NCBI RefSeq assembly: GCF_012912105.1
Contig: NZ_QMEA01000022.1
Span: 1-64,000, forward strand
DNA: 64,000 nucleotides
DNA from: Brasilonema sp. UFV-L1
GTDB taxonomy: Bacteria > Cyanobacteriota > Cyanobacteriia > Cyanobacteriales > Nostocaceae
Direction: 5' to 3'
Shown here: one piece after another, positions 3,791 to 64,000 of the stretch
Layout of the letters: each line of letters begins with the position of its first letter
How positions within the stretch are numbered: position 1 is the first letter of the stretch
The notes under the pieces: generated by a model
Database searches by the model: none
The model's input: only the letters and a program-made list of their open reading frames with translations
Told to the model about the DNA's origin: nothing
Position numbers and translations under genes: made by a program

Positions 3791-4062
3791 GGTGTTGATG
3801 ATTGACACTAAAACAGCGCAGACGCCGGCATGCGTATTGCAGAGTGTCAAATACGGGTTCAATGCCTGAAACCCATGTCAGAGTTGGTTTATAGAAAATA
3901 CCAAGATTTTCAAACTAACCTGCGGAATATGGGTTATAACTTTTCAATTTCCTTGTCCCAGTTTTGGGTTGCTTGCTATTTGCTTGCTACATAAGGATTT
4001 TACGAATTCGCCAACAGTGTCTAGGCTATATTTGCCCCATTTACGCGTAGACGCTACGCGTC

Positions 4063-5499: not shown

Positions 5500-5504
5500 T
5501 TTTC

Positions 5505-44027: not shown

Positions 44028-44099
44028 ACAATGTAGAGACGTTGCATGCAACGTCTCTACACATCATCAAATCTCACTAAAAATCCTTAACAGCAACCG
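44028..44099. repeat. Partial MITE with perfect 28-bp palindrome
   Basis: The palindrome GTAGAGACGTTGCATGCAAC... (44033-44060) equals that in the 12776-12890 element, and a right-end-like CTTAACAGCAACCGTATTG follows; the left terminus is missing. It lies between the converging GT39 and gap genes and can act as a bidirectional terminator. Confidence 0.7.
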
Positions 44100-44115
44100 T
44101 ATTGACTGATAACTG

Positions 44116-45189
<1,074 letters not shown>

Positions 45190-45468
45190 CTAAACAAAGG
45201 GAGAAAGTCAAAAGAGATTATCTTTTACTCTTTACTTCCCAATCCTGACAGTCCCGGTACGAATCGGCGTATTTACTTGGCATATTTTAAGATTTTTCCT
45301 ATTTACACAGCTTTGTTGTGTCTTTTTTGGTAAGCATTACAACAATCGGTTTTTGGTTCAAAGTCAAGACAGCCAATCGCTTCTAAAGAACATGCTTTGA
45401 CTGGATGAAACCCTGAAGGAGATAGTTTTGAGTCTTGCATGATGATGGAAATAGAAATTTCCAGATGG

Positions 45469-47220
45469 CTATTTGGGTTCTTGTCCCCAAGATAACTGCA
45501 GCCCTTCTGATTCTTTTTTGAGACTATTGATGAAATTTTGCAGTTGGTCTCCTCTTTCCTGATGTCGCCATTGTGAGCGATCGCCATGAAATACCGTAAC
45601 AATTTCTAAATATTGATTGTTGTCTATTGGTAGCATGCGGTGCCAGATGGAACTGACAGATGTTGGACGATTATCTCTTTCTTCTCTACCATTTTTAATA
45701 TTTATCCCCCGTCCGCCAACAGCAGGAGTATATTTGAAAATCTCTTCTTTGTCGTGGAAAAGATTGATCACCTGTGATTTATCTGTTTCTAAAGCATAAA
45801 CAGTAACATTGTTAGGATGCCATGCTTCTCGCCAAGCAGTCATATAATCTGGTGACTCTTGATGGTTGTTTGGTTGCCTTGAATTTAATTGGGATCGAAA
45901 TTGCTGAGTCTTTACATACAAGTTTGATAGAAAATTTTCTAAATCTCGTTTATTTTTAATTCCAACAAAATTTGGCTCGTGACATTCCCAATGACAACCG
46001 ATCGCCCTGGTTTGATAACTAGGCATAAAGCCAGGATGCCAATCACGAAGATCGCACTTGTGCCAAACTCGCCGCCAAGATTTGCCAAACCCACCCATAA
46101 TATAAGCAAATCGGAATACTGATCGCAACCAATCAGCCTCACGTTCAGGTAAAGAAACTAATAACTTCCCTTGCACCTTAAAAATAGGTGTGTTTTCATG
46201 TCCCTGTGTTCGGTCCTGACCAAGAAATGCTTGGGTTTGCCAGTACATATCTAACTTACCAGTAGCGCGATCGTGACCAAAGAAATAGTTAAGTTGCTTG
46301 TTAATTAAATTGTGATCACCACACACACCACCTAACAATCGGGTGACATGACCGCGTATAGATGCTTTAAACTGATTGGGTCTAAATTCTGGGACATCAC
46401 TTCTCAATAAAGAACTAACCCCCGTACCCAATAGTGGAATAATCAGGTTGTATTCCTGCTGTGGGCGTGGTGGTTGCCCAATTAAACCGTATCCCGTACT
46501 TGTTTTCCCACCAATTCCTGCTGTCAGTGCTAACCTTACCCATTCCTCTATCCGTTGCCATTGTTCGAGTGTCAGTTTTTGACGGCAACTTAACTCAAAC
46601 ACTAAGGTAGGTTTATAAAGGGCGATCGCCGCAAACGCATGGGGAGAAGTTCTTTTAATTCCTATTTGGCGTTCTTGTTGGGGATGAATAACATCTACCA
46701 TCCGTCCTCTGCCTGTCCAATCACCAATCGGATATGCCCGATGGAATCTTAGTTTTTCAGCTATTTTGAGTTCTATTGGTGTTAATGTATTTCGTCGTAG
46801 CCAGCGTTTAAATAACCCCTTAATTCCACTACCTGGAATCATAGGAATGCCTTCACTATCGAGAACTGGGCGGATGATATTATCTTGACCGCTATTACTA
46901 CTCAATCGTCCCGGTAGTTTTAGTAAAAAGCGGTATATGGTATCATCTAAACCAAGAGATGGTTGTGAGTGTTGATAAGTAGGGTTGAGATTGGAGTCAG
47001 GCTGTACCCACTCATCTACCCATCTTGTGAGATGAGGGTTTTGTCCTGCGTTTTGTAGACTACAACGTTCTGTAATTTGCGCCCGATACATCATCCGAAT
47101 TTCTTCGGGAGTGATGTCACTTCGTGGCTGAAACTCTGCAGATCGATCCTCCGATTCAGAGGTTTCCACGGTTATCCCTTTCTTTTGGTATGCCTTAGCA
47201 AAGGCATCTTTTAAACTCAT
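45469..47220 (-). CDS. cmr6: Cmr6-type RAMP fused to Cmr1-like RAMP (type III-B)
   Basis: 583-residue RAMP protein, last gene of the minus-strand cmr operon. Residues 110-270 show Cmr6 features: IPMIPGSGIKGLFKRWLRR and the glycine-rich loop LTAGIGGKTSTGYGLIG. Residues 285-480 form a second RAMP-like region (FKASIRGHVTRLLGG, YIMGGFGKSWRRVWHK) resembling Cmr1. No separate Cmr1 gene lies in the window, so the fused protein may supply both backbone-cap functions of the Cmr complex. The C-terminal 100 residues are unassigned. It starts 51 bases downstream of cmr5. Confidence 0.8.
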   Translation of the reverse strand: MSLKDAFAKAYQKKGITVETSESEDRSAEFQPRSDITPEEIRMMYRAQITERCSLQNAGQNPHLTRWVDEWVQPDSNLNPTYQHSQPSLGLDDTIYRFLLKLPGRLSSNSGQDNIIRPVLDSEGIPMIPGSGIKGLFKRWLRRNTLTPIELKIAEKLRFHRAYPIGDWTGRGRMVDVIHPQQERQIGIKRTSPHAFAAIALYKPTLVFELSCRQKLTLEQWQRIEEWVRLALTAGIGGKTSTGYGLIGQPPRPQQEYNLIIPLLGTGVSSLLRSDVPEFRPNQFKASIRGHVTRLLGGVCGDHNLINKQLNYFFGHDRATGKLDMYWQTQAFLGQDRTQGHENTPIFKVQGKLLVSLPEREADWLRSVFRFAYIMGGFGKSWRRVWHKCDLRDWHPGFMPSYQTRAIGCHWECHEPNFVGIKNKRDLENFLSNLYVKTQQFRSQLNSRQPNNHQESPDYMTAWREAWHPNNVTVYALETDKSQVINLFHDKEEIFKYTPAVGGRGINIKNGREERDNRPTSVSSIWHRMLPIDNNQYLEIVTVFHGDRSQWRHQERGDQLQNFINSLKKESEGLQLSWGQEPK

Positions 47221-47271
47221 AATTTATGACTCACTGAATTCTTTTTAATTTTTAGAACGATGCGGAAGCCG

Positions 47272-47805
47272 CTACCTTCGGCGATCGCGTTGTTTGAGTC
47301 GTTGAGTCCACCACACCAGTGAATCGCACAACTGGGTTAATACCGCTAAAGTTGCGCGAGTATCGGCTAAGGACATCTGACATAATTTAGTTGTCACTTC
47401 TCTAATTCCTGCGACATTGTCACTTGAATTGTTACTTGAAACAGTACAATCTCGATCAGGTAACTCAATTCCCGCATTAAGCATAATCTTCGCTAATTCT
47501 TTCCAGACATCGCGCCAATAATTTCTTTTGCCTCGATCCGTGGGGTTGTTGCTATCATCCCGCAAATGTTCTCCCCAAAATCTTTCCAGTCCATAAGCTA
47601 CGGCAATTCGCATTTTATGGGATTCGTTAATGACTTGCGAATCTTGACAATATCTTAATACTAAATCGTAGGCGTAGCGATCAAGTGAGTAAGCATGAAA
47701 TCCAACTCCTAGAGGTTCTGGGGCAGGGGTTTGTGTCTGTTGAGTTGGAACATTGCTGCGAGCATTAGGTCGTCTTGGTGGATTTAAAGGTGTATTTCCA
47801 GTCAT
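47272..47805 (-). CDS. cmr5: Cmr5 small subunit (type III-B)
   Basis: 177-residue small-subunit protein of the Cmr complex. A Pro/Asn-rich N-terminal extension precedes a helical bundle (residues 40-170: YSLDRYAYDLVLRYCQDSQ, AYGLERFWGEHLRDD, LADTRATLAVLTQL). Start at 47805 has an ideal AAGGAGG seven bases upstream, whereas an upstream ATG at 47823 overlaps cmr4. In the complex this subunit bridges the backbone along the crRNA-target duplex. It is longer than typical 120-160-residue Cmr5, but its position between cmr4 and cmr6 supports the call. Confidence 0.75.
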   Translation of the reverse strand: MTGNTPLNPPRRPNARSNVPTQQTQTPAPEPLGVGFHAYSLDRYAYDLVLRYCQDSQVINESHKMRIAVAYGLERFWGEHLRDDSNNPTDRGKRNYWRDVWKELAKIMLNAGIELPDRDCTVSSNNSSDNVAGIREVTTKLCQMSLADTRATLAVLTQLCDSLVWWTQRLKQRDRRR

Positions 47806-47819
47806 AATTATGCCTCCTT

Positions 47820-48761
47820 TCAATCAGGTAAATTGTGTAAAGTTATTTCTGTTCGTCCAAATCCTATTGATTCTAATCCACCAAAATAGAATTCTTTTGG
47901 TTTAAGATTGTGAGTCTTTGAAGGAGAATTATCATTGGTAACTTGCCAGCCAGAATCTTGAATATAATCGTTCCATTTAACATCTTTTTTAATTTTTTCT
48001 TTTTCATTATTTGGTCCTTGCTCATTAGAATGACGGCGCAGAGCAAGAGGAAATACTAAAATAGTCTTTTCTGGTAATGCTTCGACATTGAAGAAAGCTT
48101 TATCATCCACTATTTTCTCATCTTCCTTTAGTTTAACTCGACTCTGACGGTACAGAGACATATCATGAATTAGAGGCATATCAGCATCATTGACCACAAC
48201 AAATCCATATTTTTGGGCTAATGCTCCCGCACACTTTTTATAAGGTAATAATTGGCTATCGGCTTTTTCTCCTAAGTTAATAAAACCCAAATTAAAAAAT
48301 AGTTTTTGGGCGTTAATCCCACTGTGCATATATGGCTGAATATTTGAGCTATCTTTTCCCCCAGTAATACGATGATATCTTTTTAAGAGCAGTGGACAAG
48401 AAACCATGACCACAGGTTGATTAGGGCAATAAACAGGCAACCAGACAACTGATGCATACTCGAATTTAACGAGTGCTTCTGTCGTCGAAATTGGCTGATC
48501 TTTTTCATCGCGATCGCTCTTTGGACGTCTCCCTCCTGGAGTATCGCCACCTTCACGTCCATACCATAAATCACATTTTTCAGGGTTATACTCTCGCATA
48601 TCCGCCCTAAATCTACCGCGAATCGAACTCCCAGGAATAATCCCTGTTTGGGTAAATTGGTCGCGGAAAATCAAGTTTAAGTTACCTGTTTCTTCCCCTG
48701 CACTCGCTCCAACATGCAGAGGTGCTAAAGTTTCAATAATGCCGTAAGCTTTTTGGTACAT
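47820..48761 (-). CDS. cmr4: Cmr4 backbone RAMP (type III-B)
   Basis: 313-residue RAMP forming the multi-copy Cmr backbone that carries target-RNA cleavage activity. It shows the Cmr4 N-terminus YGIIETLAPLHVGASAGEE, an early IPGSSIRGRFRADM glycine-rich region and a C-terminal GGLESIGFGRTEITL loop. Acidic residues expected for RNA cutting cannot be assigned with certainty, though a D in IFRDQFT near residue 33 fits. It ends 15 bases before the cmr5 start. Separated from cmr3 by a 159-base STRR tract, yet on the same strand. Confidence 0.85.
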   Translation of the reverse strand: MYQKAYGIIETLAPLHVGASAGEETGNLNLIFRDQFTQTGIIPGSSIRGRFRADMREYNPEKCDLWYGREGGDTPGGRRPKSDRDEKDQPISTTEALVKFEYASVVWLPVYCPNQPVVMVSCPLLLKRYHRITGGKDSSNIQPYMHSGINAQKLFFNLGFINLGEKADSQLLPYKKCAGALAQKYGFVVVNDADMPLIHDMSLYRQSRVKLKEDEKIVDDKAFFNVEALPEKTILVFPLALRRHSNEQGPNNEKEKIKKDVKWNDYIQDSGWQVTNDNSPSKTHNLKPKEFYFGGLESIGFGRTEITLHNLPD

Positions 48762-48764
48762 TTA

Positions 48765-48880
48765 TATAACTCCAGTTAACAATTCAAAATTCAAAATGTG
48801 CTGCGCACCGCTGCGCTAACAAAATTCAAAATTAAAGACAGTTTCAATTGGAGATTTAAACCTCAGCTGAAACTGGGACT
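48765..48880. repeat. STRR tract between cmr3 and cmr4
   Basis: AATTCAAAATTCAAAATG units flank GTGCTGCGCACCGCTGCGC, then AAAATTCAAAATTAAAG, an STRR of the same family as in the N-terminal region of the gene at 30582-31862. It interrupts an otherwise tightly packed operon and shows no promoter or ORF. Confidence 0.7.
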
Positions 48881-48920
48881 GCGTGTAGACGTAGGGATCT
48901 AAGCCTTGCTTAATTTACGA

Positions 48921-51850
<2,930 letters not shown>

Positions 51851-51997
51851 CTTCAAATCAAAATAGTCCACACGAACACGCTGTGTCAAAAAGGTAAAAA
51901 AGCATAGCAGTAAATACCCAAACCTCAAAGAGTTCTTTTTATTACCTAAGTCTGGATACGCTACTTTAGGGATTTTTCCGCCTTAACGATAGAAACC

Positions 51998-52996
51998 TTA
52001 ACATTTCGTCAAATGAATCAACACATCAGCCAGTGCTTTTATCATTGGACGAGTAGATAAATCCTCTCCTCGTTCTAAGTGATGAACGCTACCTGTGAGT
52101 AATGGTGCTGTTTCTAGCAGTTCGTTAGTGTTGTCCTTCCAGTCGTCAGCGAGAATAACCTCGTCTTGAGTTGCATGTAACTGACTGTGAATCTTTGCAA
52201 CAATTTTGAGATTTAAATTTTGACAAAAACCTTCCCACTCTGCAAACTTGGTTGTATCACCTGCAAGGATAACTGCGTGGGATGCTGGCTGCATGATTGT
52301 CTCATTTTCTGGAGAGATTTTACCGCCAACATCAACAATGTTAATTAACTGATTCGCACTTTTGACCCATTTTGCTGCTTCTTGTGCAAATTCTGGGGTA
52401 ACATCTGTTTTATTGTTTCGCTTACAGTCTTTGGCTATTGCCTCATTATTTTCATAAGCTTGTTGATGCCAAGACCCTTCACCATCGGGACAAGCGGTAA
52501 TTACATAGGGATAAGGTGCGCCTAAAGTAAGCAAAATCGCTCTTTTTAAACCATCTCGCAAACATGATTTGCCTGATTGTGGTGGTCCGCATAAGACGAC
52601 TTTGATAATATTACGTTCTTGTTGCTTTTCTTCTGTTGCAATCACATCTCCCACTTTGGATGATGAACCGTGAGAAACGGTGACTATGTAGTTTTTGTAT
52701 CTTAGTGAACCAGTTGGTGTACTAATTTTACTACCCAATTTTGGGTCGAGAACGGCGACGACCTCGTATAAATGACCGAGTTTATGGGCGATAATATAAC
52801 TGACAGCAACAGATTGCGGTCCGTCAATTAAAATACGCTTCCCTCCAGTAATTTGCCCGGAATCAATCATTTGGTTTAAGACTTCTAGGGCATCTTTAGC
52901 GATGCGATCGCCCTGTGCAAATAAAGTCCGATTAAACCCTACTCGCAACACCTCACCTTCTAACGTCATCTGGTAGCTGTACATATTATTCTGCAT
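51998..52996 (-). CDS. csx3: Csx3 fused to an AAA-type ATPase domain
   Basis: About 332 residues. The N-terminal 100 residues match Csx3, a type III ancillary family with cyclic-tetra-adenylate ring nuclease activity (MYSYQMTLEGEVLRVGF, SVAVSYIIAHKLGHLYEVVA, VLDPKLGSK). Residues 125-320 form a P-loop ATPase (VVLCGPPQSGKSCLRDGL; NIVDVGGKIS as Walker B-like). Start at 52996 (MQNNMYSYQ) is preferred; a longer frame runs through an intergenic repeat. It lies between the JAB-E1 and cas10 genes on the same strand. The ATPase fusion may couple ring cleavage to ATP or change oligomerisation (inference). Confidence 0.88.
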   Translation of the reverse strand: MQNNMYSYQMTLEGEVLRVGFNRTLFAQGDRIAKDALEVLNQMIDSGQITGGKRILIDGPQSVAVSYIIAHKLGHLYEVVAVLDPKLGSKISTPTGSLRYKNYIVTVSHGSSSKVGDVIATEEKQQERNIIKVVLCGPPQSGKSCLRDGLKRAILLTLGAPYPYVITACPDGEGSWHQQAYENNEAIAKDCKRNNKTDVTPEFAQEAAKWVKSANQLINIVDVGGKISPENETIMQPASHAVILAGDTTKFAEWEGFCQNLNLKIVAKIHSQLHATQDEVILADDWKDNTNELLETAPLLTGSVHHLERGEDLSTRPMIKALADVLIHLTKC

Positions 52997-53049
52997 TGAC
53001 CGTGTTCCTTTAGCAACTGATTTAATATGGCATGGGAGTGGAAAAGGCG

Positions 53050-53112
53050 TATTCCAGTTTGGTTGTCCCCCCCTCTCCTTAATAAGGAGAGGGGATGGGG
53101 GTGAGGTATAAG
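53050..53112. repeat. G-rich palindromic repeat before csx3
   Basis: CCCCCCCTCTCCTTAATAAG followed by its near-inverse GAGAGGGGATGGGGGTGAGG forms a stem found also near 1130-1160 and 55505-55550. It translates to TSPPSPLLIKERGG, a common repeat-derived peptide, so upstream start codons for csx3 are discounted. Confidence 0.65.
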
Positions 53113-53144
53113 TCATGAATACAACACGCATAACCACCTTCTAC

Positions 53145-54485
53145 TTAACAACAAAAGTAACAATCATCCGTCCGGAAATACTCAATATTAGTCTTGCGCC
53201 AATCACTACCGGGAAACTCATAAATCCAGTCAATCCCGGAATCTACATTCAAAAAACCACTCACCATCCCGTGAATCACACCAACACCCGTACTTGCACA
53301 GATACTGTTTAGCCAAAAAACCGCTGGATCATTCACACCTTCCAAATAACCAGCACCCGCAGCCATTTGATGAATATCAGAAGGTGCAGACTCTAAAGCC
53401 GCGAGTTGCAGATTGATAATATTACCGCACATCAAACACCAACCACCTCCCAGAGGAGGAACAGTAATTCTGCAATACATTCGCGGTGTGTTGTCTGGTT
53501 TCACATCTATATGAGTCCCCAGACACACCAAAGGACGCATATATTCCAACGCCAATTCTTGGGCAGTTTTTCGAGAAAGGTGATTGTCAGTTGCAACCAC
53601 AATTAAATCGCAAGTTGCTATTTCTTGTTTGGCTAATTCACTTTCAATTGAGGTTGGTATTGTTTTAACACAAGAACCTTCACGGTAAATTCTTTTGATA
53701 AGATGCTTGACATAATACACTTTATGCCATTGTTGTTCTACCATTTCTTGTGTCGCACCAGGCATTCGGTTGAGATTAACAGTTTCCAATTTATCTGGGT
53801 CGATTAATACCCAATTCTTCACACCCAAACGCCCCAATAATTCTGCAAAAATTGAACCAATACCGCCACAACCAATTAATGCTACTTTGAGCTGATTCAG
53901 TTGCTTTTGATTCGCTTCACCAAAGATTTTCTGGCGGGCAAACATCAAATCTGTGTTATTCATCATATCTCTATTTTCCGAGACATCAAACAAGGAATGA
54001 CAGAATTTCACACTCTCAATTTTTTTTCCTTTTCTATCCCACATCCGGAATTGACAAGATTGTAAATCTTCGTCAAAGACACCCGAAATCAAGCGAGGTT
54101 TTTTGGGAAAACCAGAGGCGATAAACCGCGCATATTCCGACTCATAGCGGTCATCAATATAGGAAAAATCAGGGATACCTTGACCTGCATGAGTATGAAT
54201 GTGAACGACATCTAAACCTTCTAAGAGATGATTTTCCAGCAAATATGAATGAAAATGCTGTTTTAATACCAATCCATTCGTCGATTGATGTTCGTAGCAG
54301 TCAGAAGAAGGAACAACCCAAGTTTTCGGAATATAGCGGATTTTGTTTTTGAAAACTTGATGACGCTGACAAAATAAAAAACCAATGACTTCTTCATTCA
54401 ACATGCGAGACTTGAGCATAGAATCCCGAAACTCAGACCACATTTTGGGTGGTATATGCAGAGAAACCTGAGCAGATTTATTCAT
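53145..54485 (-). CDS. JAB/JAMM peptidase fused to E1-like ThiF adenylyltransferase
   Basis: 446-residue fusion of two ubiquitin-pathway domains. Residues 1-160 are a JAB (JAMM) peptidase: a catalytic Glu in LNEEVIGFLF and the metal/serine motif VVHIHTHAGQGIPDFSYIDD (H-T-H ... S-x2-D). Residues 195-440 are an E1/ThiF domain: LKVALIGCGGIGSIFAELLG, LIDPDKLETVNLNR, and CDLIVVATDNHLSRKTA. Two Cys pairs (CLMC near 350; CYFCC at the C-terminus) should bind zinc. Such a protein can mature a ubiquitin-like protein and activate its C-terminus. It lies directly after the E2 gene and before csx3, all on the same strand. Confidence 0.9.
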   Translation of the reverse strand: MNKSAQVSLHIPPKMWSEFRDSMLKSRMLNEEVIGFLFCQRHQVFKNKIRYIPKTWVVPSSDCYEHQSTNGLVLKQHFHSYLLENHLLEGLDVVHIHTHAGQGIPDFSYIDDRYESEYARFIASGFPKKPRLISGVFDEDLQSCQFRMWDRKGKKIESVKFCHSLFDVSENRDMMNNTDLMFARQKIFGEANQKQLNQLKVALIGCGGIGSIFAELLGRLGVKNWVLIDPDKLETVNLNRMPGATQEMVEQQWHKVYYVKHLIKRIYREGSCVKTIPTSIESELAKQEIATCDLIVVATDNHLSRKTAQELALEYMRPLVCLGTHIDVKPDNTPRMYCRITVPPLGGGWCLMCGNIINLQLAALESAPSDIHQMAAGAGYLEGVNDPAVFWLNSICASTGVGVIHGMVSGFLNVDSGIDWIYEFPGSDWRKTNIEYFRTDDCYFCC

Positions 54486-54534
54486 ATTTTGAAATTTGGA
54501 ATTTGGAATTTGGAATTTTTAAGCAGCGAGTCAA

Positions 54535-55020
54535 TCAATCTTCACTATTAATCGCGTGACGGGCTGTGACAAACAAAGTCGCAAGATTATGACCTTTCTC
54601 AGGATTATGACTAGGTCTCCAAGAATTCAACCAGACATCCTGATTAAATCCTCCCCCCAATCCCACACAATACCAATACCATCCTTGTGTACTTAAAAAC
54701 GGCGCACCATAATAACTTTGTCTGGTAAAGTGATGGTCTCCTTCTCCCACCGTATTCCACGGATAATTTAGATAGCAACCAATAGGAGGAAGTCGTGGAT
54801 AATCTGGTGGTAACAAAAACAAAACATCTGTGTTAGAAACGGTGAATTTTTTGGAAGACAAAGGCATTCCTTTGATAAGAATCGCTGTATATTTGATATC
54901 GCCAACTGTCTTACTACCAACAATGACTTTCTTGGCGACTTTTTCTAACAGCTTGAGTTCTTCTATGATTCTCGTACTCGGCTGAAAACCTGATTTCTCT
55001 TGGCTAATTGTAACTGTCAT
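54535..55020 (-). CDS. Prokaryotic E2 (ubiquitin-conjugating) family protein
   Basis: 161-residue protein resembling the prokaryotic E2 family E. Its core is VLFLLPPDYPRLPPIGCYLN (the E2-like PxYPxxPP turn), then HHFTRQSYYGAPF and GWYWYCVGLGGGFN, where the Cys near residue 118 is the candidate active-site residue. It would accept an activated ubiquitin-like protein from the E1 domain of the next gene. The spacing to the JAB-E1 gene is 49 bases and contains a TTTGGAA tandem repeat. Together with the 65-residue gene upstream it forms a complete conjugation cassette. No separate E3 is seen. Confidence 0.85.
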   Translation of the reverse strand: MTVTISQEKSGFQPSTRIIEELKLLEKVAKKVIVGSKTVGDIKYTAILIKGMPLSSKKFTVSNTDVLFLLPPDYPRLPPIGCYLNYPWNTVGEGDHHFTRQSYYGAPFLSTQGWYWYCVGLGGGFNQDVWLNSWRPSHNPEKGHNLATLFVTARHAINSED

Positions 55021-55111
55021 ACTTCACCTGAAAAATAGTTATCAGTTATCAGTTCAAGAAAGCTGCTTCTGCTTGATAACTGTTCACCTGAGTTGCACCA
55101 TTCTCACCAAA

Positions 55112-55180
55112 CGTAGGGTGGGCACTGCCTACCAACATTAAAATGAGAGTTTGCGATTTTGATGGGCAGTGCCCACCCGA
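55112..55180. repeat. Hairpin repeat family C
   Basis: GGTGGGCACTGCC and the opposite strand GGGCAGTGCCCACC enclose an A+T-rich loop. Equivalent hairpins lie at 21149-21213 and 55615-55680. It sits between the E2 and ubiquitin-like genes, where it might attenuate transcription; an STRR TTATCAG tract lies at 55037-55052. Confidence 0.7.
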
Positions 55181-55252
55181 AAAAAATAGCGTTATTGATA
55201 GTGATGCATTCCGGTGAGTCACTGTTTACTGTTCACTGCGGCTGGTACTGCA

Positions 55253-55450
55253 TTACCCTTTCACAATTTTGGGCACAGTCCAAACCTTTGAACCTTCTTT
55301 GAGCGCTTCGTTATTTTTGAGAGGACGAGTACCACCAAAACCCTCTTCCATCACATCATCTTGACCAATTTCTGGCAACTTTTTTCTTAATTCTTCAACA
55401 GTTGTACCTTCTGGTAAATCTACCAGTTTGCCATTAATAACTGCTCTCAT
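55253..55450 (-). CDS. Ubiquitin-like beta-grasp protein
   Basis: 65-residue protein predicted to form a beta-grasp fold: MRAVINGKLVDLPEGTTVEE, LRKKLPEIG, then RPLKNNEALKEGSKVWTVPK and a terminal glycine (KIVKG). A terminal Gly is the group activated by E1 enzymes; here it is a single Gly after Lys, not the classical Gly-Gly. Gene position directly upstream of the E2 and JAB-E1 genes identifies it as the conjugated modifier with fair confidence. ThiS/MoaD-like sulfur carriers are the alternative, but those normally lack E2 neighbours. It is a single, not duplicated, domain. Confidence 0.75.
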   Translation of the reverse strand: MRAVINGKLVDLPEGTTVEELRKKLPEIGQDDVMEEGFGGTRPLKNNEALKEGSKVWTVPKIVKG

Positions 55451-55614
55451 TTAATTTCCTCACTGTCTTCTCAAGAGTTTGATTGGCAGAAATATGACGT
55501 TGTAAGTTTTACCCCACCCTAACCCTCCCCTTATAAAGGGGAGGGAAAATATGATGTTGTTGAATTGAGTGCCCACTCAAAATGGATATCAGCAATTTTT
55601 GTAGCAATTTTTGT

Positions 55615-55680
55615 AGGGTGGGCACTGCTTAGCGATCGCACCAAATTCCTATTTTTAGGTTATGGACAGTGCCCACCGAC
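55615..55680. repeat. Hairpin repeat family C, second copy
   Basis: TAGGGTGGGCACTGC at the left and GCAGTGCCCACC-like inverse (GGACAGTGCCCACC) at the right enclose a GCGATCGC octamer. It lies with further repeat-like DNA between the ubiquitin-like gene and the gene at 55720; no promoter could be assigned. Confidence 0.65.
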
Positions 55681-55719
55681 GTGCCCTTCCCACTAGGGTT
55701 TTGAGAATGGTGCAAGTTC

Positions 55720-56133
55720 TCAGGCAGGGAAAATATCATGCTGTTGAATTGAGGCAAACTTTAACTCTGTAGATTCCGTATGTTGTTGAGGCTGATTGTT
55801 GTCATATTCAGGTAGATTCTTCATGCTAAACAGAAACGACAAGCCTACCAAACCTATCACACTGCTAATCTTGAGAAATAGCAACTGTTTAGCTTGCTTT
55901 GATGTCATCTCCTCCAAAAAGCCAATTCTTTTATCAAGCTTTTGCACATAGGATTTAGCACTAATTACCTCCTGGGTTACTTTTTGCAAATATTGTGTGT
56001 AGTCTTGTTTGCTAAGAACAGTCACCTGAGATTCTAAAGATTCACAACGTCCAATTATTTTCTCAGTCTTTTGTGTTAGTTCTTCTAGCTGATTGAATTC
56101 TTGATTAATTAACTTGCCATTCACTGTTTTCAT
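55720..56133 (-). CDS. Small coiled-coil membrane protein
   Basis: 137-residue hypothetical protein. Residues 10-95 form a coiled coil (KTEKIIGRCESLESQVTVLS; VQKLDKRIGFLEEM), followed by one transmembrane segment (LFLKISSVIGLVGLSFLFSM) and a short polar tail. The ATG at 56133 has an AAGGGAG six bases upstream; an earlier in-frame ATG at 56163 lacks a good site. It follows the NYN gene by 33 bases and is probably cotranscribed with it. Function unknown; it may anchor the NYN protein at the membrane (inference). Confidence 0.65.
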   Translation of the reverse strand: MKTVNGKLINQEFNQLEELTQKTEKIIGRCESLESQVTVLSKQDYTQYLQKVTQEVISAKSYVQKLDKRIGFLEEMTSKQAKQLLFLKISSVIGLVGLSFLFSMKNLPEYDNNQPQQHTESTELKFASIQQHDIFPA

Positions 56134-56166
56134 GAACAACTCCCTTGTTTTTTCTGACTGCATTTA

Positions 56167-56739
56167 TCAATCAAAAACATTAGAACTACCAATGCGGTGA
56201 AAGTTTTGGTTAGTATCATGTTGGTCAAATTTATCAAACACCTCAGTTAAATCCACCACACTATTAGCTGAATTTTTTAACTCACTTCCCAGAGATTGTT
56301 CGACAGAAGCGACTTCAACCCGCATTCCTCTTCTTCTGAGTTTTTCTGCTAAATAAGCAAAATCAGAATCTCCTGTCACCAAAACAACAATATCTGGTTT
56401 CACTTCTAAAGCCAATTCAATCGCATCCATCGCCATCACAACATCAACATTATTCTCGTATTCTTCTCCCTTAGCTTTACCTTCTTTAGTCACAACTAAA
56501 AAACCATTACTTCTTGCCCAGTAGATAAATTTTTCTTTACTTTTTCGCTGTTCTTCAAATCTTTCTTTTGCAGGGGGTAAACCAAGATAAATCACCATGT
56601 CTATGAGTTCTCTCCCCTCTTTTGGATCTGCTAAATAGTCCCGCACTTTATGCCAGTTTATTTTACGATTAAAATTTTGTGCAGCCATAAAGGTGTTATC
56701 ACCATCTGCAAGAATCATGACTCGACGAGGACTTATCAT
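56167..56739 (-). CDS. NYN-domain (LabA-like) nuclease-like protein
   Basis: 190-residue protein of the NYN/DUF88 PIN-like nuclease superfamily. The N-terminal VMILADGDNTFMAAQNFNR carries the first catalytic Asp, NNVDVVMAMDAIELAL the second, and VVLVTGDSDFAYLAEKLRRR the characteristic D-S-D-F loop. These acidic residues should bind Mg2+ for RNA cleavage. It opens the minus-strand block that contains the ubiquitin-like, csx3 and cmr genes, and diverges from a second NYN gene at 57313. It is a candidate RNase effector of the type III system in the absence of a CARF nuclease (inference). Confidence 0.88.
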   Translation of the reverse strand: MISPRRVMILADGDNTFMAAQNFNRKINWHKVRDYLADPKEGRELIDMVIYLGLPPAKERFEEQRKSKEKFIYWARSNGFLVVTKEGKAKGEEYENNVDVVMAMDAIELALEVKPDIVVLVTGDSDFAYLAEKLRRRGMRVEVASVEQSLGSELKNSANSVVDLTEVFDKFDQHDTNQNFHRIGSSNVFD

Positions 56740-56860
56740 ACACTTTCACCATTTCTTTTGGGTTTGTGTTTTCTTATTTCCGATTAAAACTCATGGGTGG
56801 AAAGTGCTCTTTCCTCTACTCAAATTCCCTCGTTCTTCAGATTCTCTCGTTCTTCAGATT

Positions 56861-57114
56861 CTCTCGTTCCTATGCTCTGCATAGGAATGCCTAAAACGAG
56901 GCTCCGCCTCCCAATTATTATATTGATATTGAGGCAGAGCCTCAAGTTATGCATTCCTAGCCTCTGGCTGGGAACGAGAAATTTCTCTCGTTTCTCTCGT
57001 TCCTATGCTCTGCATAGGAATGCCTAAAACGAGGCTCCGCCTCCCAATTATTATATTGATATTGAGGCAGAGCCTCAAGTTATGCATTCCTAGCCTCTGG
57101 CTGGGAACGAGAAA
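56861..57114. repeat. Tandem pair of family D repeats
   Basis: Two nearly identical units of about 120 bases (56861-56981 and 56995-57114) each read TCTCGTTCCTATGCTCTGCA, a GAGGCTCCGCCTCCC palindrome, an A+T core and GCCTCTGGCTGGGAACGAGA. The near-identity suggests recent duplication. ORFs on both strands through them share the same peptide and are artefacts. Confidence 0.85.
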
Positions 57115-57119
57115 TAGGA

Positions 57120-57228
57120 TTGTTTTTGGAAATTTCACACATGTAGAGACGTTGCATCCGAAAGTTCTACAAATGCATGCAACATCTCTACAAAGGTTAC
57201 CGTTCTTGCAAATTATCTTATCTGAACG
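57120..57228. repeat. Degenerate MITE with one terminal repeat
   Basis: GTAGAGACGTTGCATCC... and GGATGCATGCAACATCTCTAC-like arms give a damaged version of the MITE palindrome, and the right end CTTATCTGAACGGTATTG (57211-57228) is the exact inverse of the left end at 12776. The other terminus is missing. Confidence 0.6.
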
Positions 57229-57312
57229 GTATTGTCCCATAACTGGAAATATCACTTTCCACCTACTCACTACATTAAATACATGAAAGTCAAAGATTAG
57301 TGAGTCGTAGAA

Positions 57313-58272
57313 ATGAAACTTACTCAATTATTCCCAATCACATTAGTTTTATCTATGGGGTGCATCTTGACTGGAACAACTAGCAAACAACCTCTACTGC
57401 GAGTGTTGGGTGAAATCACTGCTTTGGGAGCTATTTCTAGAGAAATGCTAGTCAAACAGCACCAACTAGATGCCAATCACCAAAAGCAATTAACCCTCTT
57501 AACGAAAGAGAATACCTGCTTGCAAGCTAAACTCTCTGATGCACAGTGTGAATTTAATAAACTTGAGAAAAAAGTCAAAACTCAAAACACCTGTCAGCGT
57601 CTTTATCTTTCTAAAATCGATAAGTTGCAGCATCAACAAAAGGTAATTTTAGGAAATATCGCTCAACTACAAGAGAAGTTAGCTAAGAAAACGACTGCTA
57701 AATCTGAAATTGATCAACAAGTTTTTAAAAAACCATCAGTGAAATCTCTTCCCGAGACTCAAACATCGGTAACTCGTGTTTATATTGATGGCAATAATTT
57801 AAGTTTTGCTCTCGATAGCTTGCAGATTGAGGCAGATTATAATGCTTTGCGGGTAGAACTTTCTCAAAATGCAACTGTTACCACTTTTAAATATTACACT
57901 GGTGTTCATTCACCCATGAGTGAAGGACAAAAACGTTTTATTAGTTATTTAGAACATTTGCGTTATGAAGTCATTGGACTTCCTATTTTACCTCGACCTG
58001 ATAGCAAGAATGTCAAAACTGTTGGTGATGATGTCAAAATTGCTGTCGATATGTTGGGAGAAGTGAAACCGCAAGATAAGGTGATTCTTGTGAGTGGTGA
58101 TGGTGATTTTATTCCTGCTATTGAGGAACTTCAACGACGCGGTGCTCAAGTCACGGTTATTGCGAAGAAAACAATGCTGAGTGAGCAACTTTCCCAAATA
58201 GCTGATGATGTTGTTTTGTTAGATGATATCCAATATGAAATCGCTAAATACAGAAAGTTTAATGCGGCTTAA
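57313..58272 (+). CDS. NYN-domain protein with signal/anchor and coiled coil
   Basis: 319-residue protein. Residues 5-20 are hydrophobic (FPITLVLSMGCILTG, perhaps a lipobox or anchor), and residues 45-130 form a coiled coil. A NYN nuclease-like domain follows at 150-310: VYIDGNNLSFALDSL with the first Asp, VGDDVKIAVDML, and VILVSGDGDFIPAIEELQRR with the DGDF loop. It lies divergent from the shorter NYN gene at 56739 across 570 bases of repeats. Like that protein it has all the acidic residues of an active PIN-like RNase. Anchoring of a nuclease domain by an N-terminal hydrophobic segment is unusual. Confidence 0.85.
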   Translation: MKLTQLFPITLVLSMGCILTGTTSKQPLLRVLGEITALGAISREMLVKQHQLDANHQKQLTLLTKENTCLQAKLSDAQCEFNKLEKKVKTQNTCQRLYLSKIDKLQHQQKVILGNIAQLQEKLAKKTTAKSEIDQQVFKKPSVKSLPETQTSVTRVYIDGNNLSFALDSLQIEADYNALRVELSQNATVTTFKYYTGVHSPMSEGQKRFISYLEHLRYEVIGLPILPRPDSKNVKTVGDDVKIAVDMLGEVKPQDKVILVSGDGDFIPAIEELQRRGAQVTVIAKKTMLSEQLSQIADDVVLLDDIQYEIAKYRKFNAA

Positions 58273-58470
58273 GTAGGTGGGCGGGAAAATTTATCAGTAT
58301 GTCCGCAGCGTGCCCGGAGGGCATACGAAGCGACAGCGTAGTGTAGCAATCACAAGATATGGGATTGCTTTGCTCCACTACGTTGCGCTCGCAATGACAA
58401 TTCATAACCTGGATTTGATACAACTTACACATTTGGGATGCTCCCGTGCCTTGGTGCGTTCTGTTCTCAA

Positions 58471-58812
58471 CTAAATATTCCAAAATTCCTGCGCCATTGC
58501 TTCAATCGTTCTTTCTAAAGAAGGCAAATAGTTTTCAATGACATTCCAAACAATATCAAGGTCTACACTTAGATATTCGTGGGTTAATCTATTACGAAAG
58601 CCAGCAATATTACTCCATTCTGTCTCAGGGTATGCATTTTTCCAATCAGTTGGTAATTTTTGTACAGACTCACACATCACCTGAATATTTCTTCAAACTG
58701 CATCTTGGGTTTTAATATCATTAAAAAATACTTCTTTACCTTCAAATGTATATTGCTTAATTCTGTTGATACAATCCCGAATGTGAATAAGATAAATCCG
58801 ACTGTCTTTCAT
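58471..58812 (-). pseudogene. hepT: hepT toxin broken by an in-frame stop
   Basis: HEPN (DUF86/HepT) ribonuclease toxin. The frame starts at 58812 (MKDSRIYLIHIRDCINRIKQ), then reads DIKTQDAV, TGA, RNIQVMCESVQKL, and the catalytic motif region FRNRLTHEYLSVDLD. A TGA in place of a leucine or isoleucine codon near 58690 is the only defect visible. The start overlaps the mntA stop by four bases (ATGA), as in intact HEPN/MNT pairs. Loss of the toxin, with the antitoxin still intact, would be expected to be tolerated. Sequencing error or readthrough is possible. Confidence 0.82.
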
Positions 58813-59102
58813 AAAGGAATAGCCTCTTTTAAGACTTGATCTTGAATAAAATAATGTAAAGAATTAGTAGTTACCACATCAACCTTCCGATTCAACAAAG
58901 TTTCTAACTCTTGAACCAAGCCACCAGGAAACCAAGGTGTAATTTTATTCAAGTCATAATCAATCAAAAAATCAATATCACTGCTTGGTGTTTCTTCTCC
59001 TCTAGCTACACTACCAAAAATTCGGATATTATAAGCACCATGTTTAGCAGCAATACTGATAATTTCTGCTCGTTTTTCTTGGAGAAGTTCTTTTAATCCC
59101 AT
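58809..59102 (-). CDS. mntA: MNT nucleotidyltransferase antitoxin
   Basis: 97-residue minimal nucleotidyltransferase. It carries the GSVARGEETPSSDIDFLIDY motif (GSxxxG...DxD) at residues 31-50, and a further acidic D in VDVVTT. Members AMPylate a tyrosine near the HEPN active site of HepT and so neutralise it. It is translationally coupled to the broken hepT downstream. The pair lies immediately left of the CRISPR array, as a defence-island neighbour rather than a CRISPR gene. Confidence 0.9.
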   Translation of the reverse strand: MGLKELLQEKRAEIISIAAKHGAYNIRIFGSVARGEETPSSDIDFLIDYDLNKITPWFPGGLVQELETLLNRKVDVVTTNSLHYFIQDQVLKEAIPL

Positions 59103-59158
59103 TTTTTACTTTCTCTTATAAAACTACAGCTTATTTTAAAACATCATCTTTAATCACT

Positions 59159-62100
59159 GTTTCCAACTAATCCGATTTAACCCAATCGGTAGGGGAGATG
59201 GTGGGGACGAAGCAAAGCCTAGTCTTACTGGTTTCCAACTAATCCGATTTAACCCAATCGGTAGGGAATTGAGCTTGCATTATTGTCTCCTGTAAAACTT
59301 GAGAGTTTCCAACTAATCCGATTTAACCCAATCGGTAGGGCAGTAGTGAAGATCAGGGTAAAAGCTCTGAAAAGTTTCCAACTAATCCGATTTAACCCAA
59401 TCGGTAGGGGCAGATTGCTATAAAAAGGATAAAGATGGGAACATAACTCGTTTCCAACTAATCCGATTTAACCCAATCGGTAGGGTACAGCTTTCTCCCA
59501 TACAAACAGCGCTATCGCTAATCGTTTCCAACTAATCCGATTTAACCCAATCGGTAGGGCATTAAATGAAGCGGCAATCAGCCAGATGCTCTTTAATGTT
59601 TCCAACTAATCCGATTTAACCCAATCGGTAGGGGTCATTATGTCTAACTTCGCAAACGCTAATCCTGTTGTTTCCAACTAATCCGATTTAACCCAATCGG
59701 TAGGGAATGGAAAAAACGCAGCTGCCTTTGACCCTATAAACGTTTCCAACTAATCCGATTTAACCCAATCGGTAGGGCAGTTAATTAACTTCACTATACG
59801 AGAAAACTATACAGAGTTTCCAACTAATCCGATTTAACCCAATCGGTAGGGTTGCAGGAACAGATGATGCATTTACGCAAGATGAGCTTGTTTCCAACTA
59901 ATCCGATTTAACCCAATCGGTAGGGGCGGCATAATCGCTGTTACTCGTGAAGGAAAAGAAGTTTCCAACTAATCCGATTTAACCCAATCGGTAGGGAGGC
60001 AGTAATTTCCGCTTTTGTTTTGTGTATTTCTTTGTTTCCAACTAATCCGATTTAACCCAATCGGTAGGGCGGCAAAAAAAGAAGAAAAAACCGACACAAA
60101 AAGTTTCCAACTAATCCGATTTAACCCAATCGGTAGGGAATTGTTTTTTTTGCCGAACAGCCTGAAGAAAAAGTTTCCAACTAATCCGATTTAACCCAAT
60201 CGGTAGGGTACTATCATAAGTGTGTTAGCACTTGTGACAATTATAGGTTTCCAACTAATCCGATTTAACCCAATCGGTAGGGAGACAGTAAACCAAAACG
60301 ATCCTGACGTTCAAACACGTCAGGTTTCCAACTAATCCGATTTAACCCAATCGGTAGGGTGGTGCAAAAAAACAAAGATAGAATTCTTTTGGTAAAAACG
60401 TTTCCAACTAATCCGATTTAACCCAATCGGTAGGGTGGTAATGTGTTAGACAACAATTAGTTCATGTTGTAAGATTAAGGTTTCCAACTAATCCGATTTA
60501 ACCCAATCGGTAGGGGCAGGAGAAAAAATTATAGTTGAGACATGTACTAGCGTTTCCAACTAATCCGATTTAACCCAATCGGTAGGGAAATGAGCAAAAG
60601 AAAGAGATTATTGGAACCTACTTGTTTCCAACTAATCCGATTTAACCCAATCGGTAGGGAAGGGAGTCCTAGGCAAACGATTGCCTGAAGAGTTTCCAAC
60701 TAATCCGATTTAACCCAATCGGTAGGGGGGTATACCAATACAAAAGGAGAAACACCCATGTTAACGGTTTCCAACTAATCCGATTTAACCCAATCGGTAG
60801 GGAGTTTGAAAAAAGCTCTTTTTGCTACCTCTTTCATCGCTATGTTTCCAACTAATCCGATTTAACCCAATCGGTAGGGTCTTGCTGATCAAAAATCTAA
60901 ACCAGTATCGCAAGAGGTTTCCAACTAATCCGATTTAACCCAATCGGTAGGGTGTTTTCACTGGGCACGACCCCGTGCCTGAAGGAGACGGTTTCCAACT
61001 AATCCGATTTAACCCAATCGGTAGGGTACTTAAAGAAACCGGAGAAAAGTGGGAAGCGATTCACGTTCCCGTTTCCAACTAATCCGATTTAACCCAATCG
61101 GTAGGGCATCACTCCTCAGTATTGGGTAGGGGGTTATCCTAAAGTTTCCAACTAATCCGATTTAACCCAATCGGTAGGGTTGTAGTACAAGAAGTCGTCC
61201 GTATCGCTTAACTTCGTTTCCAACTAATCCGATTTAACCCAATCGGTAGGGAGAAGTTGAGTTTGATTCTAGTTTGCCTGGCTCAAGAGGTAGTTTCCAA
61301 CTAATCCGATTTAACCCAATCGGTAGGGGAGTTAACTAAGAATACTGGGGAAAAATGGGAAGCGATTCGTTTCCAACTAATCCGATTTAACCCAATCGGT
61401 AGGGTACCAATTAACTGCACACCATTCTGGGTTACTTTGAATGTTTCCAACTAATCCGATTTAACCCAATCGGTAGGGACTTTATCGTTGCAGCTGGTTC
61501 AGTTGACGGAGTTTTAGCCTGTTTCCAACTAATCCGATTTAACCCAATCGGTAGGGTTACTATTGCTACTTCTCTATTTACAGCTTTCTCCCATAGTTTC
61601 CAACTAATCCGATTTAACCCAATCGGTAGGGGTTACCGAGGAGTGGCTAAACAGGCATGATTTAAAGTTTCCAACTAATCCGATTTAACCCAATCGGTAG
61701 GGGACAGCAACGCTTGCTCAAACGTTAATGGGCTAACGTTTCCAACTAATCCGATTTAACCCAATCGGTAGGGTCAAACCGGCGAAATCGTTGAGTTAAT
61801 TTCTTTAAGTTTCCAACTAATCCGATTTAACCCAATCGGTAGGGTCGCGGTACAGTAGAGATTTGTCGGGGAGATAAGTGTAAGTTTCCAACTAATCCGA
61901 TTTAACCCAATCGGTAGGGCGCTTCTGGCACGCTATATACCCAAGTTCTTTAAACTGAGCGGTTTCCAACTAATCCGATTTAACCCAATCGGTAGGGTCT
62001 TTTGCCAATAGCCAAGAACTTTCTTCTTTGAATTCTGTTTCCAACTAATCCGATTTAACCCAATCGGTAGGGGCGAGAATGATCGTCGAGGTCGGAAACC

Positions 62101-63395
62101 GCTTCTAGAAGGTTTCCAACTAATCCGATTTAACCCAATCGGTAGGGATAACTCAAGTTCTTGCAGAGGAAACACCTCCAAAGTTTCCAACTAATCCGAT
62201 TTAACCCAATCGGTAGGGTTCTCCTAACGAAGTTGTAACTAAGTTACAAAATGAATTGTTTCCAACTAATCCGATTTAACCCAATCGGTAGGGAGGCAAT
62301 CAAGCCTAAAAAAAGCCGTAGGCATTTGGGATTCGTTTCCAACTAATCCGATTTAACCCAATCGGTAGGGGTTTTAAATCGTCGTTCTTCTATCCAGCAA
62401 CAGAAGTTTCCAACTAATCCGATTTAACCCAATCGGTAGGGCAAAAATGTCCCTACCAAAAAGGTCTTACTTTGGAGAACCGTTTCCAACTAATCCGATT
62501 TAACCCAATCGGTAGGGTGCTAGCGCTGAATCAGCATGGCAGTATACTGCTGAAAGGGAGTTTCCAACTAATCCGATTTAACCCAATCGGTAGGGGGGTA
62601 TTTAAACCTCGTGATGCCGAGAGTAAGGTTTCCAACTAATCCGATTTAACCCAATCGGTAGGGGTGACAAAACTGATAGCAACAGGCAGCGTAGTGATGA
62701 CGTTTCCAACTAATCCGATTTAACCCAATCGGTAGGGACTTGGGACAATAAGAAAGTAGAAGAGAGCCCTGAGGTTTCCAACTAATCCGATTTAACCCAA
62801 TCGGTAGGGTACCACGGAACAGCTGAACAACTACGACAACAGACAGTTTCCAACTAATCCGATTTAACCCAATCGGTAGGGAAGCAACTTCAGTGATGCT
62901 GATCAATCTTCTAGCGTGAGTGTTTCCAACTAATCCGATTTAACCCAATCGGTAGGGGCTGCTTCCTTGTTTATTTCCGGCGTTGTTCTCATTTCGTTTC
63001 CAACTAATCCGATTTAACCCAATCGGTAGGGAAATCAATTACAATTCGGTTTTTCTTGACCTGTAACGTTTCCAACTAATCCGATTTAACCCAATCGGTA
63101 GGGTAACCCAGAATGGTGCAACGGTAAGTGCAGGAATGTTTCCAACTAATCCGATTTAACCCAATCGGTAGGGTGGCAACTGTTGCTAACCAAGACCTAG
63201 CTACTGCTATGTTTCCAACTAATCCGATTTAACCCAATCGGTAGGGGTTAATTTAGGAATTGATTACTATGCCTCAATCTAGGTTTCCAACTAATCCGAT
63301 TTAACCCAATCGGTAGGGTTCTTCTGTCTTCGCACAGTCTGCTCCTAAAGCTACTACAAGTTTCCAACTAATCCGATTTAACCCAATCGGTAGGG
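59159..63395 (-). CRISPR. CRISPR array, 58 repeats and 57 spacers
   Basis: Thirty-six-base repeats start GTTTCCAACTAATCC and end CCCAATCGGTAGGG on the + strand; all 58 copies look identical. Spacers are about 33 to 44 bases. The repeat contains CCGATT/AATCGG, a six-base stem. On the minus strand the repeat ends GTTGGAAAC, the usual form of a 3' end leading to an eight-base crRNA handle. A promoter-containing leader and cas2 lie on the right, so transcription runs right to left and spacers near 63360 should be the newest. Two spacer pairs are related (see findings). The cmr operon is 12-18 kb to the left on the same strand; no cas6 or cas1 is in the window. Confidence 0.98.
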
Positions 63396-63613
63396 GGTTC
63401 GTCTAGCAGCCCTTACCCAGTAAGGGTTCCAGCCGCCAAATCGACACCACTCTCAAATACATTATATATGTTGTGCGAAATTGAGCAAAACACATACCTC
63501 AAATCCTTGCCCTACAAGCAATCGACACCACTCAACGAAAAATATAGGGTTTCGGCGATTTGGCGAGTGGTGTCGATGCACCATCTAAAAATCACCCCTA
63601 ATCTTCCCCAAAC
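63396..63613 (-). promoter_or_regulatory. CRISPR leader with promoter and inverted motif
   Basis: On the minus strand a TATAAT (63461-63466) and a 16-base-upstream TTGCTC (63483-63488) form a good promoter for the array. TCGACACCACTC occurs directly at 63441-63452 and 63522-63533 and inverted at 63565-63576. Next to the first repeat, CCCTTAC and GTAAGGG (63410-63416, 63420-63426) form a seven-base hairpin with a three-base loop. These may be adaptation or IHF-like bending sites (inference). Confidence 0.75.
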
Positions 63614-63889: not shown

Positions 63890-64000
63890 GAAACAATTAG
63901 ATAATATAAATTCATGAAAATACCAGTTTTTTAGGATAATTCAAAACAAAGCAAGCATATTAAATGTGTAAGTTATATCAAACTTAGATAATGACTTGTC

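Follow-up and report, generated by a model that had tools for sequence, protein, structure and literature searches.

A five-gene NYN-CC-Ubl-E2-JABE1 module linked to RT-Cas1-Cas2 in cyanobacterial CRISPR loci, with a possible part in spacer acquisition

The genes for a ubiquitin-like (Ubl) cascade that lie beside a type III-B CRISPR complex in Brasilonema sp. UFV-L1 belong to a five-gene module, NYN1-CC-Ubl-E2-JABE1. This module is CRISPR-linked, and it is tied more to NYN and to the adaptation genes RT-Cas1-Cas2 (RT, reverse transcriptase) than to Csx3 or Cmr. The DNA analysed, here called the window, comprises 64,000 nucleotides (assembly GCF_012912105.1, contig NZ_QMEA01000022.1, positions 1-64,000 of the forward strand). 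We consider the chances about even that the module serves cyanobacterial RT-Cas1-Cas2 adaptation as a dedicated accessory; Bub-like conjugation and deconjugation would then regulate the acquisition of spacers from RNA.

The five genes occupy the - strand. NYN1, the first (56167-56739), encodes a NYN/PIN-like RNase (PF01936; Pfam NYN 1.1e-28). It is followed by CC, a coiled-coil-like protein encoded by the longest open reading frame (ORF) between NYN1 and Ubl (55720-56163, probable start 56133). Next come Ubl (55253-55450), a single beta-grasp-like protein ending in VPKIVKG, an E2-like protein (54535-55020) and a JAB-E1 fusion (53145-54485), in which a JAB metalloprotease domain precedes a ThiF/E1 adenylation domain (ThiF 8.3e-29). 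The original prediction had seen in Ubl, E2 and JAB-E1 a complete cassette embedded in a type III-B locus. The three genes are real, on the strand and at the coordinates just given, as attested by the ORF list, Pfam, matches to Bub proteins and invariant residues, and the embedding is confirmed. Two further members of the unit, NYN1 and CC, had been overlooked.

Wherever genes are intact in the loci read, they follow the order NYN1-CC-Ubl-E2-JABE1. The identical order recurs in dozens of genomes, so the adjacency goes beyond chance, and an accidental juxtaposition in a single genome was rejected on this ground. E2 was detected in 31 of 388 genomes of the host's order, at 66-91% identity (three weak matches of 34, in G281, G147 and G165 with E 3e-6 to 9e-4, were left out). 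A phylum-wide draw of 386 genomes contained it in 7, all seven from the same order. It was confirmed in 27 of 68 pattern-matched genome-contig stretches, all cyanobacterial by title, at 72-97% identity, two of them partial. Plasmid records contained E2 in 3 of 72,556 cases. Viral contigs gave a single match of 21 residues, and viral relatives were rejected accordingly. The host genome has one copy of the module only. Among 51 E2 loci taken as non-redundant (L057 and L043 duplicate L065 and L074 by origin), 29 have at least 6.5 kb on both sides; neither duplicate is among these well-flanked loci, in which NYN1 is found in 27, Ubl in 28 and JABE1 in 29. Naturally broken copies occur as well. An insertion of about 1.2 kb interrupts E2 in L065 (G274), JABE1 is in pieces and Ubl and NYN1 were not found in L075 (G167), and L090 (G362) keeps NYN1, Ubl and part of JABE1 while E2 was not found.

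The co-occurrence check places the cassette beside CRISPR in many genomes, not in this one alone. RT, Cas1 or Cas2 relatives are nearby in 26 of the 29 well-flanked loci, with RT itself in 25, while relatives of this Cas10/Cmr, scored against the proteins of the window locus or of L004, are present in 19 and Csx3-AAA in 12. The ten loci devoid of such Cas10/Cmr are L083, the broken L075 and eight with RT-Cas1-Cas2. In L083 (G348, 1433-5759) a type III-D effector (Cas10d and Cas5/Cas7 of III-D) replaces Cmr beside JABE1. The other eight (L018, L019, L030, L065, L067, L068, L076 and L082) hold the module and RT-Cas1-Cas2 with no effector gene found nearby; PADLOC, which covered 30 of 65 unassigned ORFs of at least 130 aa across nine loci, named no Cas effector subunit among the 28 of 62 such ORFs that it covered in these eight. 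The distance from JABE1 to the RT that follows is about 0.1 kb in L078 and about 0.35 kb in L090.

The same preference is visible among the 388 genomes. E2 and a CRISPR RT occur together in 25, E2 only in 6 and RT only in 14 (Fisher p 6e-24). A CRISPR RT was counted at E 8e-80 or better, a cut set at a gap in the matches; the weaker matches left out start at 2e-50 and come mostly from long frames resembling the RTs of group II introns. For Cmr3 the corresponding figures are 25, 6 and 140 (odds ratio 6.5, p 8e-6), the Cmr3 counts being low because the Pfam model missed G361, although a Cmr3 relative is encoded in L009, the twin of its locus. Of the Cmr3-positive genomes, those with a CRISPR RT carry E2 in 21 of 30 cases and those without one in 4 of 135. 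In 17 of the 25 genomes with both, E2 and RT share a contig, separated by no more than about 18 kb. Stretches from the 14 RT-positive, E2-negative genomes, several of them on short contigs, yielded NYN1 in L090 only.

Sequence divergence also follows the adaptation genes. In the 15 loci holding all of seven genes, and with the kinship of the hosts ignored (no host-tree control), E2 distances correlate with those of RT at r 0.78, Cas1 at 0.66, Cas10 at 0.37 and Cmr4 at 0.14. Over the cassette genes the ranges are 0.63-0.82 for RT and Cas1, 0.37-0.57 for Cas10 and 0.12-0.27 for Cmr4. The partial correlation of E2 with Cas1 given Cas10 is 0.61, that of E2 with Cas10 given Cas1 is -0.18, and with Cas1 controlled for, the cassette's correlations with Cas10 and Cmr4 fall to zero or below. 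The original prediction had tied the cassette to Csx3 and the Cmr complex. The adjacency that it noted does recur, but that either is the specific partner is not supported; RT-Cas1-Cas2 is the steadier companion, and the locus counts, the distances, the Cmr3/RT genome table and the III-D effector of L083 led us to reject Csx3/Cmr as a constant partner.

NYN1 is conserved about as well as E2 (mean distances 0.21 and 0.23), and its residues D12, D14, D99, D124 and D126 are invariant in 21 of 21 homologues. Beyond a variable linker, its C-terminus carries a conserved peptide, mostly (R/P)IGxxNxFD, which could possibly serve as another docking motif.

CC shows coiled-coil character and a C-terminal hydrophobic, transmembrane-like segment, both judged by eye. 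It is divergent, with a mean column identity of 24% over 27 sequences, yet N5, G6 and K7 never vary and L8 hardly does. The motif NGK[LM] is present in 46 of 46 distinct CC proteins, that of the window included, each picked blind to the motif as the longest ORF between NYN1 and Ubl. An ORF with this motif is found in all 76 locus copies, duplicates included, that have NYN1 and Ubl, and the idea of CC as an anonymous spacer ORF was rejected on this evidence. The motif is encoded by 39 distinct nucleotide versions with synonymous changes, and a DNA or RNA signal was rejected for this reason. The same four residues recur in Ubl, and hhalign places TVNGKLINQE of CC on VINGKLVDLP of Ubl (E 5e-4). 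This alignment comprises just 10 columns at a probability of 32%; a true Ubl homologue was therefore rejected, and mimicry or partial duplication remains a suggestion. The NGKL peptide of CC may mimic the first hairpin of Ubl and could bind a partner that both proteins share.

The sole Pfam match of Ubl is ThiS-like PF14453 (E 8.8e-5), at 23 bits below the cut-off of 26. The Pfam scan gave no match to PF14452, the tandem-repeat Ubl family, and the protein is a single Ubl of 65 aa. It is conserved up to G65, and 32 of its 65 positions, N6-G7-K8-L9 among them, do not vary across 25 sequences. After the KG that ends in G65, 24 of 45 distinct Ubl proteins stop and the other 21 carry unlike tails of 1-9 residues. 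This count leaves out L048 (G198, contig C309), where Ubl continues in frame into E2 from the conserved KG, an arrangement like that of ubiquitin fusion precursors. The conserved core, the variable tails and the L048 fusion point to proteolytic maturation.

E2 matches Prok-E2_E (PF14462) over residues 38-85 at 25.2 bits, just above the cut-off of 25.0. C82, C118 and H144 are invariant in 30 of 30 homologues. The AlphaFold model is weak, with a mean pLDDT (predicted local distance difference test) of 66 and residues 87-125 below 50. In a Foldseek comparison it came closest to Citrobacter BubB (E 0.02, probability 0.99); none of its fold matches reaches E 0.001, and nearly all of the 50 listed are E2/UEV folds. 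By the order of motifs in E2 proteins, C118 is the likely catalytic candidate; because the model is poor in this region, the assignment is drawn from the motif order.

The E1 half of the JAB-E1 protein retains GCGGIG, D229, D231, N239, R240, K255 and D300 in all 34 homologues. Pfam did not call the JAB half in the window protein and found Prok-JAB in 1 of the 34 (E<=0.01), while E32, H97, H99, S108 and D111 of this half are invariant in 34 of 34; the H99-S108 spacing is one residue above that of the JAMM motif. Citrobacter BubCD aligns by sequence with residues 31-401 (E 4e-15) and is also the best PDB match of the model over its length (TM-score 0.66, E 2.7e-27, root-mean-square deviation 9), values which indicate that the domains agree better than their arrangement. 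The names of the Citrobacter BubA-BubB-BubCD proteins follow PDB titles. Invariant cysteines are C39, C63, C206, C350, C353, C442 and C445. The last four are probably zinc ligands of a zinc-knuckle-like kind, so that an E1 catalytic cysteine is not evident; the E1 half has no spare invariant cysteine among the 34 homologues.

The linkage to RT-Cas1-Cas2 suggests a role of the module in spacer acquisition, and the following sequence of events can be envisaged. JAB would trim the tail of Ubl and expose Gly65, which the E1 half would adenylate. Since the E1 half offers no spare invariant cysteine, the activated Ubl would pass directly to E2, probably to C118. E2 would then attach Ubl to a protein of spacer acquisition, most likely NYN1 or a component of RT/Cas1/Cas2, and JAB would take it off again. 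NYN1 would cut or trim the RNA that RT-Cas1-Cas2 makes into spacers, the Ubl tag switching this step on or off and thereby limiting RNA capture to infection. CC might place the machinery at the membrane through its NGKL peptide, with its resemblance to the first hairpin of Ubl. A narrower version, in which the cascade tags the NYN RNase or RT-Cas1-Cas2 and so licenses RNA spacer capture, with the membrane protein and its hairpin mimic as docking platform or competitor, is put forward more tentatively and is somewhat on the doubtful side. An accessory role in adaptation is supported by the variety of effectors that accompany the module, mostly III-B, III-D in L083 and none found nearby in eight loci.

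Several points weigh against this role. Conjugation, its target and the effect on adaptation are predictions from sequence and linkage, and the choice of C118 depends on motif order in a region where the E2 model is poor. E2 was not detected in 14 of 39 CRISPR-RT genomes, several with short contigs, from which it follows that the module is dispensable for RT adaptation. Three well-flanked loci lack RT, Cas1 and Cas2, namely L016, which has Cas10/Cmr, L063, which has only a Cas10-like piece of 45 residues, and the broken L075. Cmr relatives are, after all, carried by 19 of the 29 loci, and JABE1 distances correlate with those of Cas10 (0.57, p 0.007) and Cmr3 (0.48, p 0.023) when Cas1 is not controlled for; these counts and correlations are compatible with a role that the module may play together with the effector. 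It must also be noted that the correlation test comprises 15 loci with host kinship ignored, and that Cas10 evolves faster than Cas1.

The module could instead act in crRNA (CRISPR RNA) biogenesis, NYN1 trimming the ends of pre-crRNA or crRNA for the effector and the Ubl cascade controlling the level, place or activity of NYN1. The module often lies between the array and the Cmr genes, and the NYN protein of a Bacteroides fragilis type III-B system cleaves single-stranded RNA in a Mn-dependent manner, an activity that its authors connect with crRNA trimming (PMC11346440). We nevertheless regard this as unlikely. Eight loci pair the module with RT-Cas1-Cas2 and show no effector nearby (a weaker argument should these genomes encode an effector at another site), RT-positive Cmr loci L088, L096, L097 and L099 are without NYN1, and the module tracks RT/Cas1 rather than Cas10/Cmr. 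In line with the original prediction, the cascade might modify Csx3, Cas10 or another Cmr protein, or be itself under the control of cyclic oligoadenylate signalling. Such a role would fit the window, where csx3 begins 148 bp after JABE1 with no terminator-like site on that strand and Cas10 retains GGDD, and it would fit the 19 loci with Cas10/Cmr, the 12 with Csx3, the enrichment of E2 in Cmr3-positive genomes and the JABE1-Cas10 correlation. The enrichment, however, goes with RT (21 of 30 against 4 of 135), the partial correlations with Cas10 or Cmr4 vanish or turn negative once Cas1 is given, Csx3 was not found near 17 of the 29 loci and the effector of L083 is III-D, so that we judge this reading decidedly improbable.

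It might also be supposed that a stand-alone anti-phage system of the Bub/Bil type, tagging phage proteins, is merely located in a CRISPR island. Its closest solved relatives are Bub proteins, and Ubl-like conjugation serves anti-phage defence in CBASS (cyclic oligonucleotide-based anti-phage signalling system; PMC10097602). A clear cas gene is nevertheless near 27 of the 29 loci (26 with adaptation genes, and L016 with Cas10/Cmr), even L063 has its Cas10-like piece, the host genome holds its single module copy here, and the Bub-like operon on Synechocystis plasmid pSYSX, albeit a single comparison, lies more than 10 kb from any annotated cas gene; mere location in the island is thus very unlikely. 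Least credible is a pathway that tags no protein, whether sulfur-carrier or lipid-conjugating in the manner of Atg8. The ThiS-like match of Ubl, an E1 half with no invariant cysteine to spare, the single terminal glycine with its variable tail and the hydrophobic C-terminal segment of CC, a membrane-like protein in the module, are what such a pathway would call for. Conjugation is the better fit for a fused JAB and for an E2-like protein whose cysteines are invariant, and three plasmid loci, the only ones searched for such genes, have no annotated gene for sulfur transfer within 15 kb; we therefore give this pathway a very small chance.

Downstream of the module on the - strand come the genes that the original prediction had listed, csx3-AAA, cas10 and cmr3 to cmr6, each named by PADLOC, as is Cas2. 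The listed Csx3-AAA ORF is 51998-53137, but the PADLOC match (3.2e-112) opens at its residue 52, and the true start is probably near 52996, which sets the gene at 51998-52996 and gives the gap of 148 bp to JAB-E1. Cas10/Cmr2 (50144-51928; PADLOC Cas10b 3.9e-194) has its cyclase motif GGDD at residue 369. It is followed by Cmr3 (48921-50165) and Cmr4 (47820-48761), both found by Pfam as well as PADLOC, Cmr5 (47272-47823; 8.2e-48) and a long Cmr6 of 583 aa (45469-47220; 5.7e-125). As to a separation of the cassette from csx3, a pattern scan of 51800-57400 found no terminator-like site on the cassette strand between the two, one terminator-like site in all, on the + strand, against 4.5 expected, and 11 promoter-like sites against 14.3 expected; with counts below expectation the scan is weakly informative in either direction.

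On the other side of the module lie NYN2, a second NYN-domain protein in divergent orientation (57313-58272, + strand; Pfam NYN 5.5e-21) that is present in part of the loci only, a CRISPR array of 58 exact 36-base repeats and 57 spacers of 32-44 bases (59159-63395, no strand assigned) and Cas2 (63614-63889, - strand; PADLOC). Beyond the window, on the same contig (C144), are Cas1 and a stand-alone RT with YADD, in stop-to-stop frames at 64070-65440 and 65386-66357, and a TIGR03985-like protein. With Cas10 GGDD, Cmr3-6, array, Cas1, Cas2 and an RT with YxDD, the locus has the features of an RT-containing type III-B system. At megablast sensitivity the array gave no spacer-source match among phages, and Rfam at gathering thresholds gave no match in 44000-64000. 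Between NYN1 and NYN2, a 133-base repeat is present in two tandem copies of 97% identity (56850-57115). Beside the array (58471-59102), a HepT-like ORF (NF047751, 43 bits, below the cut-off of 60) adjoins an ORF that reads like a nucleotidyltransferase, and the two are a possible toxin-antitoxin candidate pair. In other loci, a block of four small unnamed proteins and a 'CRISPR-associated protein' recurs (L003, 16659-19624; L030, 15594-18681), and upstream of NYN1 in L076 (14221-15435) a protein matches the PADLOC type III accessory model C3a124, of unknown function (E 1.9e-93).

If correct, the proposed role would, as far as literature searches reach, give CRISPR-Cas its first known link to a ubiquitin-like conjugation system, and the link would be to adaptation, not interference. 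Among the matches listed by searches of open-access PubMed Central, some lists being the top of longer ones, none (PMC4963859 and PMC3710099 included) was by title, opening of the abstract or the passages covered a report of a Ubl/E2/JAB-E1 cassette with CRISPR, a result that does not establish its absence from print; nor did open-access literature searches turn up a paper on Bub. In the accessible part of Iyer 2006 (PMC1779556), NYN occurs in a reference title only and CRISPR just in a comparison and in references, and this was rejected as an earlier account of the link. The module would also offer a handle on an open question, the choice and processing of RNA for spacers by RT-Cas1 systems. 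For a cyanobacterium, the source of RT-Cas1 spacers is called enigmatic by Silas 2017 (PMC5513706).

Among CRISPR systems, two kinds come close. The Bacteroides fragilis type III-B locus of Chi and White 2024 (PMC11346440) has, like the present one, a NYN RNase, and its authors cannot rule out that the CRISPR NYN has a role in making spacers with RT-Cas1; the word 'ubiquitin' is absent from the main text. Cyanobacterial RT-CRISPR systems (Toro 2017, PMC5541045; Silas 2017) likewise have type III loci in which the RT adjoins Cas1 or is fused to it; 'ubiquitin', 'NYN' and 'ThiF' are absent from the main texts of both papers.

The module appears to work like the Bub, Bil or CBASS Ubl systems, yet it departs from each of them in at least one of the defining features compared. 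Like CBASS Cap2/Cap3 (PMC10097602), it would combine E1/E2-type conjugation via a C-terminal glycine with a peptidase, both encoded in a defence locus. There, cGAS is conjugated and a single protein holds the E1 and E2 domains, whereas here they are separate ORFs, a small Ubl is present and no cGAS-like enzyme is among the family matches of the scanned window genes. BilABCD likewise has a Ubl, an E2 with a cysteine and a downstream histidine, an E1 and a JAB, the JAB exposing the terminal glycine of Ubl (PMC11354881). C118 and the downstream H144 of the present E2, both invariant, may correspond to the Bil pair, although the weak E2 model gives no clear active-site geometry. Bil, however, has separate E1 and JAB proteins and a BilA with two Ubl domains, in contrast to the fused JAB-E1 and the single Ubl found here.

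The closest resemblance is to the Bub or class 6e systems (Iyer 2006), in which JAB is fused to the N-terminus of E1 as it is here. The Prok-E2_E match is shared, JAB-E1 aligns with BubCD and the E2 fold matches BubB best. The JAB-E1 of the Synechocystis 6803 pSYSX operon also aligns with that of the window (hhalign 99.8%). The differences lie in the other components. Class 6e has a tandem-repeat Ubl (PF14452) instead of a single one of 65 residues, and the Synechocystis multiubiquitin does not match the present Ubl (hhalign probability 0.2%). The Synechocystis E2 is without a cysteine, in contrast to the invariant C82 and C118, and the two proteins align over residues 47-89 only. The class 6e E2 is described as an inactive E2/RWD (Iyer 2006, PMC1779556), whereas C82 and C118 are retained in 30 of 30 homologues of the putative E2 described here. 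The Synechocystis operon further encodes a metal-binding DUF6527 protein, of which no ORF is apparent between NYN1 and csx3 in the window; no search with the DUF6527 model was made there or in other loci. The NYN partner, the CC partner and the CRISPR linkage are features of the module, not of Bub. The module would thus add a branch to the Bub-like systems, one with invariant cysteines in its E2 and with a partner protein that carries a short peptide resembling part of the modifier.

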